A DNA stretch of 64,000 nucleotides from Enterovirga aerilata (lineage in GTDB: Bacteria > Pseudomonadota > Alphaproteobacteria > Rhizobiales > Beijerinckiaceae). The stretch is taken from contig NZ_JABEPP010000002.1 of NCBI RefSeq assembly GCF_013044135.1, positions 682,001 to 746,000 on the forward strand, read 5' to 3'. The stretch's first letter is position 1. Each line of letters opens with the position of its first letter. The position numbers and the translations under genes were made by a program. Of this stretch, positions 30,653-64,000 are shown one piece after another. The notes beneath the pieces are model-generated. The model was given only the letters and a program-made list of their open reading frames with translations. It ran no database searches and was not told the origin of the DNA.

Positions 30653-30667
30653 GAACAAAATAGGAAC
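30653..30667. promoter_or_regulatory. LexA (SOS) box
   Basis: The sequence GAAC-AAAATAG-GAAC is the reverse complement form of the alphaproteobacterial LexA operator GTTC-N7-GTTC, with both half-sites perfect. It lies 33 bases before the imuA start, where it would repress the mutasome until DNA damage. Confidence 0.9.
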
Positions 30668-30700
30668 AACACTTATCCGGGACCTCTTCTCGAGCAAGGC

Positions 30701-31543
30701 ATGGAGCATGCCGGGCACAATGCCGCTTTGTCCGATCTGCGCCGCCGGATCGTCGGGCTCGACCGCTCCGCCCGGGCGAAGAGGTCGGCGCTCGCCTTCG
30801 GGATCGAGGGGATCGACAACCACCTTCCCTGGCGCGGGCTGCCGCTCGGCACCCTGCACGAATTCGCCGAAAGCGGTCTCGAGTCCGAGCATGTCGCGGC
30901 CGCGACGCTCTTCATCGGGGGGTGCCTGGCGCGCACGAAGGGCACGATCCTGTGGTGCCTCCGCGGGCGCGATCTCTTCGCGCCCGCCCTCGCTTCAGTC
31001 GGGCTGCATCCCGACCGGGTCATCTATGTCGAGACCTGGAAGGACGCCGAGGTCCTGCCCGCCATGGAGGAGGCGCTCCGGCATGGCGGGCTCGCCGGGG
31101 TCGTGGGCGAGGTGGCGCATCTATCGCTCGTCGCCTCGCGCCGGCTGCAGCTCGCGGCCGAGAGCTCGGGCGTGCCGGCCTTCGCGCTCCGGCGCTGGCA
31201 CACCGATGCCGAGCGCGCCTCGGCAAGCGAGCCGAACGCCGCCTTTACCCGCTGGCGCATCGCGCCGGCCCCCTCCCCGCCGCCCCCCGTGCCCGGCCTC
31301 GCCCGCGCCCGCTGGCGCGTGGATCTCCTCCGCTGCCGCGGCGCCGAGCCGCATTCCTGGATCGTTGAGGCCTGCGATGCCAAGGGTCGTCTCGCTCTTC
31401 CTGCCGTGCTTCCCGACCGACCGGATCGCGCGCCTCGCCCGGCGGCAGCGCAGGGCGGCGGAGGCGGACGCCCCCTCCCCGTCGCGGCCGACGGTGACCG
31501 CGGCCCGCGACGGGTCGCGGCGGCTCGTCGCCGCGGCGGATGA
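30701..31543 (+). CDS. imuA: mutasome accessory protein ImuA (RecA/SulA-like)
   Basis: A 280-residue RecA-related protein without a full Walker A loop. ImuA features include LPWRGLPLGTLHEFAE, GGCLARTKGTILWCLRGRDLF, PDRVIYVETWKDAEVLPAMEEALRHGGLAGVVGE and a C-terminal WRVDLLRCRG block. It acts with ImuB and DnaE2 in damage-induced mutagenesis. ATG 30701 is chosen as it lies downstream of the LexA box and begins the family-like sequence. Its frame overlaps imuB by 167 bases, so the last 55 residues are encoded within imuB and are low in complexity. Confidence 0.88.
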   Translation: MEHAGHNAALSDLRRRIVGLDRSARAKRSALAFGIEGIDNHLPWRGLPLGTLHEFAESGLESEHVAAATLFIGGCLARTKGTILWCLRGRDLFAPALASVGLHPDRVIYVETWKDAEVLPAMEEALRHGGLAGVVGEVAHLSLVASRRLQLAAESSGVPAFALRRWHTDAERASASEPNAAFTRWRIAPAPSPPPPVPGLARARWRVDLLRCRGAEPHSWIVEACDAKGRLALPAVLPDRPDRAPRPAAAQGGGGGRPLPVAADGDRGPRRVAAARRRGG

Positions 31544-32912
31544 GGCGGCGCTCGCGATCGGGCTCAGGCCTGGACAGACGATCGCGCATGCCCAGGCCTC
31601 CGTCCCGGGCCTTGTCGTGGTCGAGGCGGAGCCGGAGGCCGACCTCCTGGCGCTCGGCGAGCTCGCCCGCTGGTGCGGGCGCTATTCGCCCGTGGTCCAG
31701 GCCGACCCACCGGACGGCGTGCTGATCGACATCGCGGGCTCGTCCCATCTCTTCGGCGGCGAGACGGGAGCCGTGCGCGACCTCCTGCGCCGCGTCCGGC
31801 GATCCGGCTATTCGGCCCATGCCAGCCTCGCCGACACGCCCGGTGCCGCCTGGGCCGTGGCGAGGTTCGGCGGGGGCGGCATCGTGCCGACGGGAGGGGC
31901 CGCGAAGGCCGTCGCGCCGCTGCCGGTCGCGGCCCTGCGGCTCGAGGGCGAGACCTGCCGCGCGCTGGCGCTGCTCGGGGTGGAGCGGGTCGGCCAGCTC
32001 GCCGCCCTGCCCCGGGCGCAGCTGACCCGGCGCTTCGTCCGTACCCTGTTCGAGCGCTACGAACGGGTGACCGGCCTCGCCCCGGACCCGCTGGCGCCGA
32101 TCGTGCCGCGCGAGGCCCCCTGCGTCCGGCGCGCCTTCCCCGAGCCGCTCGGCCATCTCGACGCGCTCGCGGCCGCGCTGGAGCGGTTGACCGGGGAGCT
32201 CTGCCGCGAGCTGGAGCGGCGCGGCGAGGGCCTGCGCCTGCTCGACACGATCCTCCGCCGCGTCGACGGCCAGCCGGTGTCGTTGCGGGTCGGCGCCTCG
32301 CTGCCGACCCGCGATCCGGCCCATTGCGTTCGCCTCGTCGGCGAGCGTCTGCAGACGGTCGATCCGGGCTTCGGCATCGACGAGATGGCGCTTCTCGCCG
32401 CCCGCGTGGAACCGCTCCGCGCCCGGCAGGAAGAGGCGGTCGCGACGCTCGAGGCGGAAACCCGCGATGCGGCGGCGCTCGCGCCCCTGGTCGACAGGCT
32501 CGGTGTCCGGCTCGGGACCGAGCGCGTGTTCCGAGCGGCGCCCGTCGAGAGCAGGGTGCCGGAACGGTCGGTCAAGCGCGTACCCGCGCTCGCGCCGGTA
32601 ACCGGCATCTCGTGGCCGGAAGCTTTGCCGCGGCCCTCCCGTATCATCGACCCGCCGGAGGAGGTGCGCGCGACGGCGCTGCTGCCGGATTACCCGCCGA
32701 AATCGTTCGTGTGGCGGCGCGTGCGCTACAATGTGGCCTCGGCCGACGGCCCCGAGCGGGTGCACGGCGAATGGTGGATCTCCGACGCCAAGATGGCGGA
32801 GCTGCGAGACTATTACCGCGTGGAGGACGAGAAAGGCCGCCGCTTCTGGCTGTTCCGCAACGCGCCGACGCCCGAGGGCACGCGCTGGTGGCTGCACGGG
32901 CGCTTCACGTGA
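31377..32912 (+). CDS. imuB: Y-family polymerase-like mutasome hub ImuB
   Basis: A 511-residue protein beginning RVVSLFLPCFPTDR, related to Y-family DNA polymerases but lacking the full set of acidic catalytic residues, as is normal for ImuB. The palm-like part includes PPDGVLIDIAGSSHLFGGE, and the helix-hairpin region LLGVERVGQLAALPR. The C terminus ends with the ImuB-specific EWWISDAKMAELRDYYRVEDEKGRRFWLFR segment. It bridges the beta clamp, ImuA and DnaE2. ATG 31377 lies inside imuA; the frame is open further upstream but the family starts here. Confidence 0.9.
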   Translation: MPRVVSLFLPCFPTDRIARLARRQRRAAEADAPSPSRPTVTAARDGSRRLVAAADEAALAIGLRPGQTIAHAQASVPGLVVVEAEPEADLLALGELARWCGRYSPVVQADPPDGVLIDIAGSSHLFGGETGAVRDLLRRVRRSGYSAHASLADTPGAAWAVARFGGGGIVPTGGAAKAVAPLPVAALRLEGETCRALALLGVERVGQLAALPRAQLTRRFVRTLFERYERVTGLAPDPLAPIVPREAPCVRRAFPEPLGHLDALAAALERLTGELCRELERRGEGLRLLDTILRRVDGQPVSLRVGASLPTRDPAHCVRLVGERLQTVDPGFGIDEMALLAARVEPLRARQEEAVATLEAETRDAAALAPLVDRLGVRLGTERVFRAAPVESRVPERSVKRVPALAPVTGISWPEALPRPSRIIDPPEEVRATALLPDYPPKSFVWRRVRYNVASADGPERVHGEWWISDAKMAELRDYYRVEDEKGRRFWLFRNAPTPEGTRWWLHGRFT

Positions 32913-32961: not shown

Positions 32962-33204
32962 ATGGCATCCCTCACCATCGACAACCTCGAGGACAGCCTC
33001 CTCTCGCGCCTGCGGGCGCGGGCGGACGCGCACGGCACCTCCGTCGAGGAGGAGGCTGCGGCGATTCTCAAGGTCACACTTGACCAGGAAAATCCTGGCG
33101 AGAGACTTGTTCGCGTGTTCCGAGAGGAATTCGGACGGCTGGGCGGAGTGGATCTCGAGCTGCCACCGCGTCAGTCCGGTTGGAAGCCGCCGGTTTTCGA
33201 GTGA
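32962..33204 (+). CDS. FitA/VapB-type antitoxin (ribbon-helix-helix)
   Basis: An 80-residue antitoxin. Residues 1-40 form an Arc/MetJ-like ribbon-helix-helix (ASLTIDNLEDSLLSRLRARADAHGTSVEEEAAAIL) that binds its own promoter, and the acidic/hydrophobic tail binds the toxin. A strong AGGAGGGG (32949-32956) precedes ATG 32962. The last codons overlap the toxin start by four bases (GTGA, 33201-33204). It lies 49 bases after imuB and within the mutasome cassette. Confidence 0.88.
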   Translation: MASLTIDNLEDSLLSRLRARADAHGTSVEEEAAAILKVTLDQENPGERLVRVFREEFGRLGGVDLELPPRQSGWKPPVFE

Positions 33205-33617
33205 TCATCCTCGACACGAACGTTATTTCGGAGCTGATGCGGGTCAGCCCCGAGCCGAAAGTTATCGAGTGGCTGGCTCGTCATGGGAACGAAGGCCTCT
33301 CCACGACCGCAATAACGAAAGCCGAGATACTGGCCGGCATAGCCGTCCTGCCGTAGGGAAAGCGGCGGAGAGAGCTGGAAGCGAGTGCCAGCCGTGCATT
33401 TGCGCACGCCTTTCTAACCGACATTCTGCCTTTCAACGAACAGGCAGCTCCACATTTCGCAGCCGTTATCACAGCGCGCCGTGGCCACGACAAGATTGCG
33501 GATGCCATGATCGCCGCGATCACACGCCTGCACGGCGCCGCCATCGCAACCCGCGACGTAAAGGACTTTGCGGATTGCGGGACTGTGGTCCGCAATCCCT
33601 GGACCGAGACCATCTAA
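33201..33617 (+). pseudogene. FitB/VapC-type PIN-domain toxin with in-frame amber codon
   Basis: Read from GTG 33201, the frame encodes a PIN ribonuclease of 138 residues but carries TAG at codon 52 (33354-33356), where relatives have a residue between ALLP and GRRR. Before and after the stop the sequence is typical: LDTNVISEL (first Asp), TKAEILAGIAVLP, then GKRRRELE, DILPFNEQAAPHFAAV, DKIADAMIAAI and ATRDVKDF (later acidic residues), ending at TAA 33615-33617. No other lesion is seen, so loss of function looks recent. Sequencing error or amber suppression are alternatives. The antitoxin gene is intact. Confidence 0.85.
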
Positions 33618-33642: not shown

Positions 33643-36600
33643 ATGATCCCCGAGCTCCAGGTCACCACGCATTTCTCCTTCCTGCGCGGGGCGTCCTCCC
33701 CGGAGGAGCTGTTCGCGGCGGCCGCGCTCCTCGGCATCCCGGCGCTCGGGATCGTCGATCGCGGCTCGCTCGCCGGGATCGTGCGCTGCTGGGAGGCGGC
33801 GAAGACGACGGGCGTGCGCATGGTCGCCGGCACGCGGCTCGATCTCGTGCGAGATCCCGGGCGGTTGAAGCCGGGCGACGAGGTGCCGCCGGCCGAGCGG
33901 GACGCCTCGCTTCTCGTCTATCCGACCGACCTCGCGGCCTATTCGCGTCTGACGCGGCTGCTCTCCGTCGGCAAAGCACGCGCGGGCAAGGGCAGGTGCC
34001 ATCTCACCTGGGACGACCTGCCCGCATGGAGCGAGGGCCTCCACGCGATCCTGCTGACGGACCGCCCGAACGCGGCGCTGGAAGCCGACCTCGCGCGGCT
34101 GCGCGAGACCTTCGGACGGCGCGCCTCCTGCGCCCTGACCCGCCGCTTCCGCCCGGACGACCAGCTTCATCTCGACGGGGTCGCGGCCATGGCTGCCGCG
34201 GCGCGGGTGAGGATGGTGGCAACCGGCGACATCCTCTATCATTGCCCGGAGCGGCGCATCCTGCAGGATGTCGTCACCTGCATCCGGCTCGGCCTGAAGA
34301 TCGACGAGGCCGGTTTCGCGCTCGAGCACCATGCCGACCGGCACCTGCGGAGCCCGGCCGAGACCGAGCGGCTCTTCGAGCGCTATCCCGAGGCCCTCGC
34401 CCGCGCGGTCGAGATCGCCGACGCCTGCCGCTTCGATCTCGGCGAGCTGCGCTACCAATACCCGTCCGAGGTGGTCGAGCCAGGCCTCTCGGCGCAGGAG
34501 ACGCTCGAGCGGCTGACCTGGGCGGCCGCCGCCGGCCGCTATAAGGGAGAGGTCCCCAAGAAGGAGAGCAGCCAGCTCCGGCACGAGCTGAAGCTCATCC
34601 GGGAACTCGACTACGCGCCCTATTTCCTCACCGTGCATGCGATCGTGCAGGCGGCTCGCAGCATGGACCCGCCGATCCTCTGCCAGGGTCGCGGCTCGGC
34701 CGCGAATTCCCTCGTCTGCTTCGTGCTCGGGCTCACCTCCATCGACCCGATGGAGAAGGACCTGCTCTTCGAGCGCTTCGTCTCGATGGAGCGGCGCGAG
34801 CCGCCCGACATCGATGTCGATTTCGAGCACGAGCGCCGCGAGGAGGTGATCCAGTGGGTCTACAAGACCTATGGCCGCCATCGCGCCGCGCTCTGCGCCA
34901 CCGTGATCCGCTACGGCGCCCGCAGCGCCGTGCGCGAGGTCGGCAAGGTTTTGGGCCTGCCGGAGGATGTGACGGCGGCGCTCGCCGGGCTCGTCTGGGG
35001 CTGGAGCCGCGAGGGCGTCGGCCAGAAGGAGGCGACGGAGCTCGGCCTAAATCTCGCCGACCGGCACCTGCGCCTCACGCTGGAGCTAGCCCAGCAGCTC
35101 ATCGACACGCCGCGCCACCTTTCGCAGCATCCCGGCGGCTTCGTGCTGACCGAGACGCGCCTCGACGATCTCGTCCCGATCGAGCCCGCCGCCATGAAGG
35201 ACCGGCAGGTCATCGAATGGGACAAGGACGACATCGACGCGCTCACCTTCATGAAGGTCGACGTGCTCGGCCTCGGCATGCTCGGCTGCATGCGCCGCGC
35301 CTTCGACCTGATCGAGGAGGTCGAAGGAGTCCGGCACGATCTTTCGACCGTTCCCCAAGGAGACAAAGCGACCTACGCGATGATCCGGAAGGCCGACACG
35401 CTCGGCACATTCCAGATCGAAAGCCGCGCGCAGATGGCCATGCTGCCGCGGATGAAGCCCAAGTGCCTCTACGACCTCGTCATCCAGGTCGCGATCGTCC
35501 GCCCGGGCCCGATCCAGGGCGACATGGTCCATCCCTATCTGCGTCGGCGGGAGAATCCTGAGCTGGTGACGTATCCCACGCCGGAGCTCGAACGCGTGCT
35601 CTGGAAAACTCTCGGCGTGCCGCTCTTCCAGGAACAGGCAATGCGGGTCGCGATCGAATGTGCCGGCTTCACGCCGGGCGAGGCCGACCAGCTCCGGCGC
35701 GCCATGGCGACCTTCAAGCTCACCGGCAAGGTCTCGCTGTTCCGCGACAAGCTGATCGCCGGCATGACCGACCGCGGCTATACGCGCGACTTCGCGGAAA
35801 GGACGTTCAAGCAGATCGAGGGCTTCGGCTCGTACGGTTTTCCCGAGAGCCATGCGGCGTCCTTCGCGCTCATCGCCTACGCTTCAGCCTGGGTGAAACG
35901 CCACCACCCTGACGTCTTCCTCGCCGCGATCCTCAACTCGCAGCCGATGGGTTTCTACGCACCCGCCCAGCTCGTCCGCGACGCCCGCAACCATGGCGTC
36001 GAGGTGCTGCCGCCGGACGTGAATTTGTCCGGCTGGGATACGCGGCTGGAGGCTCCGTGTCATCCTCGGCGGTCGCGCAGCGACCGGGAAGGGGATCCAG
36101 AAGACATAGCCGAGGCTGGATCCCCTTCCCCTCCGCAGCGCTGGCGCGCCGCTCCGGCCGGGGATGACAAGCGTCCTCTCATCCCCGTCCGACTCGGCCT
36201 GCGGCTGGCGAAGGGCCTCTCCAATGCGGACGGCGCCCGGATTGTCGCGGCGCGCGGCGAGCATCCCTATTCGTCGATCGAGGAGCTGTGGCGGCGCGCC
36301 GGGGTGCCGATCACCGCGCTGACGCGCCTTGCCGAGGCGGACGCCTATGGCTCGCTGAAGCTCAACCGGCGCGACGCCCTCTGGGCCATCAAGGGTCTTG
36401 CGGACGAGCCTCTCCCCCTCTTCGCGGCCGCGGATGCGCGCGAAAACCGGCTCACGCCGGAGATCGTCGAGAGCCCGGTCGCGCTCACCCCCATGAGCGA
36501 AGCCCGCAACGTCGTGGAGGATTACCGCTCGCGCGGCCTGTCGCTCCGGCGGCATCCGCTCGGATTCATGCGTGACGACCTCGCCCGGAGGGGAGCCGTG

Positions 36601-37113
36601 CCCTGCGCGGCGCTAAGGACCATGCGGACAGGCCGGCATGTCACGGTCGCGGGGCTCGTCCTCGTGCGGCAGAAGCCGGGCTCGGCCAAGGGTGTCATGT
36701 TCATCACCATCGAGGACGAGACGGAGGTCGCGAATCTCGTCATCTGGCCCTCGCTCTTCGAGCGCCAGCGCCGGCTCATCCTGTCGGCCGGCATGATCGC
36801 GGTCCGCGGCAAGGTACAGCGCGAGGGTGAGGTGATCCATGTCGTGGCCGACCACCTCGTCGATCTGTCGGACATGCTGCGCGGCCTCGGCGATCGACAG
36901 GACGAGGAGGCCTTCCCGCTCCGCACCGGCCGTGGCGACGAGGCCAGGCATGGCGGCTCGCCCGACCAGAGGGACGGGAATGCACGACCGCGCCCTCCCG
37001 TCCCCGACTCGGCTTCGCCCGAATCTGCCTTCGGCCGCAAGGCACGCGACATCTACATCCCGGACCTGCGGCTCGGCTCCGGCATCAAGATCCCGACGCG
37101 CGATTTCCGGTGA
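33643..37113 (+). CDS. dnaE2: error-prone DNA polymerase III alpha subunit DnaE2
   Basis: A 1156-residue C-family polymerase, the catalytic part of the ImuA-ImuB-DnaE2 translesion mutasome. The PHP domain starts at once ([17 protein letters not shown]), the catalytic palm has [18 protein letters not shown] near residue 390, and the [15 protein letters not shown] and [18 protein letters not shown] blocks are typical. The OB region ([21 protein letters not shown]) lies near 1005 and the C terminus ends with [12 protein letters not shown] 33643 was chosen as the family start. Residues about 806-843 are not DnaE2-like: they are encoded by a palindromic repeat inserted in frame. Transcription is expected from the LexA-controlled imuA promoter, across the toxin-antitoxin pair. 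Confidence 0.93.
36058..36169. repeat. 112-bp palindromic element inserted in frame in dnaE2
   Basis: The element begins TGTCATCC and ends GGATGACA. Inside it are perfect 15-bp inverted arms, 36086-36100 (GGGAAGGGGATCCAG) and 36116-36130, around a 15-base loop. It keeps the reading frame and adds about 38 residues rich in Arg, Pro, Asp and Ser between the conserved SGWDTRLE and [11 protein letters not shown] blocks of DnaE2. A partial copy of the same element begins at 63965, so it is dispersed. It behaves like a protein-coding palindromic repeat comparable in kind to Rickettsia palindromic elements. Confidence 0.85.
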
Positions 37114-63964: not shown

Positions 63965-64000
63965 GTCATCCCCGGCGGCCCGAAGGACCGGGAAGGGGAT
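63965..64000. repeat. partial copy of the dnaE2-embedded palindromic element
   Basis: The last 36 bases begin GTCATCC and end GACCGGGAAGGGGAT, matching the left half of the element at 36059-36096 apart from internal changes in the GGCGG-linked loop. The window ends inside the first inverted arm, so the remainder is not visible. Confidence 0.75.

Follow-up and report, generated by a model that had tools for sequence, protein, structure and literature searches.

Palindromic repeats of about 100 bp, some of them mosaic, occur in Hyphomicrobiales, as RIME in Rhizobium and Bru-RS in Brucella. REPs of the GTAG and CGTC types are described in PMC3733652, according to whose accessible text CGTC elements seemingly have no dedicated transposase, rarely form clusters and take in RPE-6 and RPE-4 of R. 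conorii, which are equated with CGTC-tagged REPs. The same text reports a REP in the DnaE of R. conorii and listed DnaE2, in 2013, among REP-tagged proteins (PMC3733652). It also describes a REP at about the same site in recB of two Xanthomonas; recB aside, genes that share a functional category carry their REPs at different sites (PMC3733652). The domains of DnaE2 are described in PMC3919608, and contacts of DnaE2 with ImuB have been modelled at the PHP domain and the (HhH)2 region (PMC12926913), both sources being cited for their accessible portions.

The first-pass annotation of the DNA studied here had called such a repeat little described for DnaE2, a view that the 2013 list corrects. That annotation could not have shown the recurrence, namely that other elements have repeatedly entered the same loop. 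A literature search of titles and the openings of abstracts, with few subscription journals covered, found no report of recurrent insertion at this DnaE2 loop.

We analyzed a 64,000-nucleotide stretch of the Enterovirga aerilata genome (contig NZ_JABEPP010000002.1, positions 682,001 to 746,000), referred to as the window. The gene of interest and its upstream neighbors are as follows.

33643..37113, plus strand: dnaE2, error-prone DNA polymerase, one open frame with the element in frame
31377..32912, plus strand: imuB-like gene with IMS and IMS_C domains, upstream of dnaE2
30698..31543, plus strand: imuA-like gene, upstream of dnaE2 (NF033429, 55.8 bits, below the 150-bit cut-off)
30653..30667, no strand assigned: the window's sole GAAC-N7-GAAC site, located upstream of the imuA-like gene

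The assignment to dnaE2 (imuC) held up: the product scores 1341 bits against NF004225 (error-prone DNA polymerase; cut-off 939), and imuA-imuB neighbors are present, with the imuA-like match below its cut-off. It is 68-69% identical to named Methylobacterium and Microvirga DnaE2 proteins and 68% identical to a Sphingomonas DnaE2. We take the GAAC-N7-GAAC site to resemble the alphaproteobacterial SOS box. Between imuB and dnaE2 lie a FitA-like antitoxin gene (PF22513; 32938-33204) and a short PIN-domain piece (33180-33356) that scores just under its cut-off.

Within dnaE2 there is a palindromic element, which was found to have the coordinates, the length, the termini (TGTCATCC/GGATGACA) and the perfect 15-bp inner arms that the first-pass annotation had assigned to it, and through which the open frame runs as claimed. 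Its parts, and the second copy in the window, are listed below.

36058..36169, plus strand: palindromic element, 112 bp, read as DnaE2 residues 806-843
36058..36070, no strand assigned: outer left arm, a TGTC tag followed by ATCC, paired in the fold with 36157-36169
36071..36085, no strand assigned: small hairpin 1 in the fold, with alternative stems among genome copies
36086..36100, no strand assigned: inner left arm, a perfect 15-bp complement of 36116-36130, ending in GGGGAT-CCAG
36116..36130, no strand assigned: inner right arm, complement of 36086-36100
36135..36152, no strand assigned: small hairpin 2 in the fold, with alternative forms among genome copies
36157..36169, no strand assigned: outer right arm in the fold, ending in GGATGACA
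63965..64000, plus strand: second element copy, found by sequence search and broken off by the end of the window

The outer arms form 13 pairs, and the RNA fold of the element reaches -73.6 kcal/mol (z = -6.5), a stability equaled by none of 200 dinucleotide shuffles. TGTC at 36058-36061 is mirrored by an inverted GACA at 36166-36169. The layout is head-to-head, with one unit at 36058-36100 and an inverted unit at 36116-36169. By eye, the element contains ATCC and GGAT followed by CCAG, its uninterrupted stems are 6 bp long, except that the first unit of the dnaE2 copy has 5 bp and a wobble, and its loop is long and composite, with a small hairpin of its own. No Rfam RNA family matched positions 35900-36400 at E values up to 0.1.

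To count copies, we searched the whole genome with the element, which gave 123 matches at E values up to 10. By hand count, these fall in 44 distinct places that match at least 90% of the element, the dnaE2 copy included, and about a dozen partial copies, among them the one that had been noticed at the window edge. In an alignment of 35 of the 44 near-full-length places, most copies are 115-123 bp long; the first T of TGTC is kept in most, and the rest start at GTC or within it. The copies are mosaics in which the ends and inner arms are fixed, the small hairpins take alternative forms and the center is variable. Many form tandem arrays with short spacers, and some are at contig ends. The right-hand half of the dnaE2 copy is shared with three isolated copies and not with the tandem arrays; GGATCCCC and GGGGATGACA of the dnaE2 copy occur in three isolated copies. 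Arrays with short spacers are found at C1:932285-933359 and C4:328244-328884, at the ends of contigs C3 and C4 and at the start of C5. The ends of two contigs and the beginning of another fall inside arrays of this kind or immediately next to them, an indication that the arrays break the assembly.

We screened 15 loci, dnaE2 included, for open frames through the element. Leaving dnaE2 aside, the 14 remaining loci have 20 open frames that pass through it and reach 180 aa or more, three of which hold Pfam domains (M20 peptidase, OppC-type permease and homoserine dehydrogenase). At none of these 14 loci does the element interrupt a Pfam domain; each domain starts well downstream. The idea that the element is specially open for translation was rejected, since 115 of 210 element frames are open and mononucleotide shuffles average 104. 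Among eight congeners, six of whose genomes are incomplete (61-85%), the element has five weak matches in three genomes and none in the other five; one match covers nearly the whole element at 70% identity and the others are partial. Neither the flanks of the 35 copies nor eight compared pairs allowed a target-site duplication to be defined. A Y1-type transposase (PF01797) was rejected as the mover of the element, as this genome has no match to that family; five of 14 control genomes were positive.

By codon arithmetic, the insert occupies residues 806-843, which fall inside a Pfam HHH_6 match (residues 785-911) and, by sequence, after the stretch that aligns with PPDIN, a motif found around residue 818 in E. 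coli Pol III alpha. When the window gene was compared with two congeners, dN/dS was 0.12-0.27 both before and after the insert; both halves of the gene are under purifying selection. To judge from this selection, which averages over the time before insertion as well, the inserted DnaE2 is probably made. We also placed the insert on an AlphaFold2 model (33 sequences, mean pLDDT 81.7, pTM 0.78). At 806-840, the tip of a hairpin, pLDDT is below 50, and this stretch is flanked by short strands and by domains modelled with confidence; ten-residue means on either side are 94 (791-800) and 93 (851-860). The insert-encoded peptide is predicted to be a disordered, floppy loop.

We surveyed the same loop, measured from the N to the G of its flanking motifs, in 259 alphaproteobacterial DnaE2 genes: 30 family loci, including the window, which were ranked by an insert-containing query and may be biased to long loops; 80 named loci; and 149 class-sample loci, the best-scoring listed matches from a search in which 195 of 387 genomes were positive. 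Two pairs of genes are identical duplicates (L162/L239 and L171/L220). The loop is mostly 21-24 aa in the named and class-sample sets. It reaches at least 60 aa in six of the 80 named and six of the 149 class-sample genes, with one species common to both, and at least 33 aa in 65 genes across the three sets. Of the 20 loops of at least 60 aa, 19 fold more stably than their shuffles (z -2.6 to -10), L059 being given as the exception. Among the 45 loops of 33-59 aa, six have z of -2.5 or below: L057 (the window), L064, L140, L313, L068 and L206. Windows of the same length within the same gene were equally stable in 12 of 24 cases for L067, 11 of 37 for L239 (identical to L162), 17 of 53 for L140, 5 of 25 for L249, 5 of 33 for L203 and 4 of 39 for L258, and by this measure these inserts are not unusually stable.

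Absence of the insert from related DnaE2 proteins had been predicted, and the genes of four congeners agree. The congener G005, whose DnaE2 is 85% identical, carries a different palindromic element in the loop; the remainder of its genome, which is 77% complete, has only partial matches to this element, of 27-63 nt. The loop of G006 (L059) has no palindromic signal and, at 52 aa, equals that of G005 in length; it is possibly an eroded insert. G004 and G007 have shorter loops with other sequences. Two findings had been named that would speak against a mobile repeat, namely conservation of the insert in distant DnaE2 proteins and absence of the repeat elsewhere in the genome; we observed neither.

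To determine if the loop inserts are repeats, we compared 18 of them, as concatenated queries, with their own genomes at E values up to 1e-4, leaving out L140 and L206. Among the matches listed, 16 of the 18 inserts have a second place that matches them in their own genome, in some cases only half an element. For G193, the additional copies among the matches listed correspond to the insert of G101 or to the homologous one of G143. The insert of G546 has no second copy among the matches listed for its own genome, yet it hits numerous places in G471, a genome from the same family.

Where within DnaE2 do such inserts lie? All 259 genes were mapped on one reference, 222 of them nearly full length, and inserts of at least 20 aa with z up to -2.5 were scored as palindromic. 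Counted as genes, not events, and thus as a measure of insertion plus survival, 22 palindromic inserts are in the loop (reference 784-796) and nine elsewhere in the gene. Without the family set, the numbers are 13 and eight in 229 genes (with a target of 30 residues, binomial p is about 4e-15). The inserts outside the loop are at 121-140 (L292, L299, L312 and L318), at 868-890 (the identical L162 and L239, and L212), at 942 (L081) and, doubtfully, at 69 (L172). Positions 121-140 would be at the PHP domain and 868-890 after the (HhH)2 region.

In a FastTree tree of 258 genes, from which the loop had been left out, the insert state changes at least 18 times, gains and losses being counted alike; the threshold by which 23 genes were labeled for this purpose (z -2.4 and at least 25 aa) differs slightly from that of the position test. 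One close empty site is seen in L201, whose 25-aa loop stands beside the 69-aa loop of L203 at a tree distance of 0.1. Clustering of the 23 labeled inserts gave nine groups when the threshold was loose (40 nt, E 1e-4), one of 13, one of three and the others single, and 16 when it was strict. L059, also clustered, is an additional single at both thresholds; it is non-palindromic and stands outside the nine. As 13 inserts share one loose cluster, the independence of the element families is only partial. With nine clusters, a single sequence-specific integrase would not explain the pattern.

A hotspot at the level of DNA, in which the sequence or single-stranded state of the dnaE2 loop draws palindromic elements independently of selection, is the strongest alternative, although we consider it unlikely. 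It would account for the very strong concentration within a 13-residue stretch. It would also fit the conserved HPRHxxM-like extension that follows the insertion point in many of L061-L086 and in L237, L278, L312 and L320, since several palindromic inserts directly precede this extension. However, the inserts begin at differing codons (reference residues 784-796, depending on the alignment) and fall into nine loose clusters, and those at 121-140, 868-890 and 942 suggest that further variable regions of the protein are tolerant too.

As a control, we examined DnaE1, which was found in 141 of 144 class genomes; 140 of the 141 matches span the equivalent loop. By the listed coordinates, the net gain relative to a query of 214 aa does not exceed about 10 aa, except in G310, and none of the 140 loop-spanning genes gains more than 20 aa. 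The DnaE1 of G310 (L439) has a lysine-rich addition of 20 aa in the equivalent loop, which by eye is not repeat-like. Loops of at least 60 aa occur in six of 149 class-sample DnaE2 genes versus none of 141 DnaE1 genes (Fisher p 0.030), and 11 distinct DnaE2 loops of 228 versus none of 141 give a Fisher p of 0.008; both values are approximate, as one of the 141 DnaE1 matches (G369) stops short of the loop, and the comparison is unpaired by genome, with many DnaE1 genomes small and perhaps holding few repeats. Extension of the pattern beyond Alphaproteobacteria was rejected: among 53 listed loops from other classes of the phylum, the longest is 51 aa. One 36-aa loop from another class (L410) looks by eye like half an element.

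We consider random in-frame insertion followed by selection, at a tolerant hairpin tip in a polymerase whose use is conditional, to be the best explanation, with a probability of roughly three in four. A mobile palindromic repeat, similar in build to two TGTC/CGTC-type REP units joined head-to-head, would have spread through the genome, and one copy would have entered dnaE2 in frame, where a short hairpin immediately ahead of the (HhH)2 region has its tip. As the element has no stops in about half of its possible frames and encodes a peptide predicted to be disordered, the polymerase could have kept working. In other lineages, other repeats would have entered DnaE2, and the surviving copies would be concentrated in this one loop, as it is probably the most length-tolerant spot in a damage-tolerance polymerase. 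This explanation joins the repeat family, the open frame, the selection on the flanks, the low model confidence at the insert and the recurrence in one loop across lineages and clusters. We infer that insertion was random and the concentration was made by selection; the insert peptide is probably made and neutral.

Alternatively, the insert may have been domesticated, its mRNA palindrome or its peptide tuning the level of DnaE2 or its contact with ImuB and being kept by selection. The message contains a hairpin of -73.6 kcal/mol, and the DnaE2-ImuB contacts modelled in the accessible part of PMC12926913 adjoin two of the insertion areas. Against this, the insert of the closest palindrome-bearing congener is non-homologous and of different length, and most DnaE2 genes examined have no insert, making domestication improbable. 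Slightly less probable again is that the hairpin loop is a general capture site, at which one alphaproteobacterial lineage after another gains a fresh repeat-encoded peptide beside the predicted ImuB contact region, these disposable inserts retuning or throttling the mutasome; if this were true, selfish repeats would alter the mutation supply of their host. Least credible of all is an old inherited insert degraded in relatives, or an assembly artefact: the equal 52-aa loops of G005 and G006 could mean that some lengthening predates their split, but the window and G005 inserts have no similarity at the clustering threshold, the inner arms are still perfect and the dnaE2 copy is well within a 943-kb contig.

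What had been an isolated curiosity becomes, in DnaE2, a repeatable natural experiment, in which one spot of a polymerase took in different repeats many times and the site is empty in at least one close relative. The loop permits tests of how non-coding repeats turn into protein, of their neutrality and of their effect on stress-induced mutagenesis.

Among known systems, Rickettsia palindromic elements of the RPE-1 type offer a parallel in behavior, as longer palindromic repeats that are inserted in frame while the protein is kept, which the present element resembles. The dnaE2 copy appears, from its sequence, to be a repeated palindrome within a kept gene in the same way, although in a different bacterium and in a genome where the 14 other loci give no case of an interrupted Pfam domain. 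The likeness to Rickettsia elements proposed in the first-pass annotation therefore stands for the in-frame mode within a kept gene and in part for the type of sequence, as the resemblance to CGTC REPs is incomplete (PMC3733652, accessible text).

CGTC/TGTC REPs, as described there, carry an end tag of CGTC, often TGTC or CCTC; the element has TGTC. It also has the complementary AT at the first two stem positions, the CCA-type tail and the head-to-head dimer of these REPs, and like them belongs to a group that is mostly alphaproteobacterial, sometimes intragenic, including in DnaE2, and without a dedicated transposase (PMC3733652). In contrast, these REPs have stems of 8-9 bp and loops of 4-5 nt, whereas the element has 6-bp stems and a long composite loop, and tandem arrays are common here. 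Because of the mismatch in stem and loop, we did not assign the element to families CGTC-1 to 4. The REPIN/RAYT system differs: its tag is GTAG whereas the element ends in TGTC/GACA, and its Y1-type transposase (PF01797) is absent from this genome. Finally, as with the REPs found in repair genes (PMC3733652, accessible text), the element is in a gene of this kind, here that of an inducible error-prone polymerase. For those REPs, recB is the one precedent for a shared site and the sites otherwise differ, whereas here many lineages share a single loop of DnaE2.
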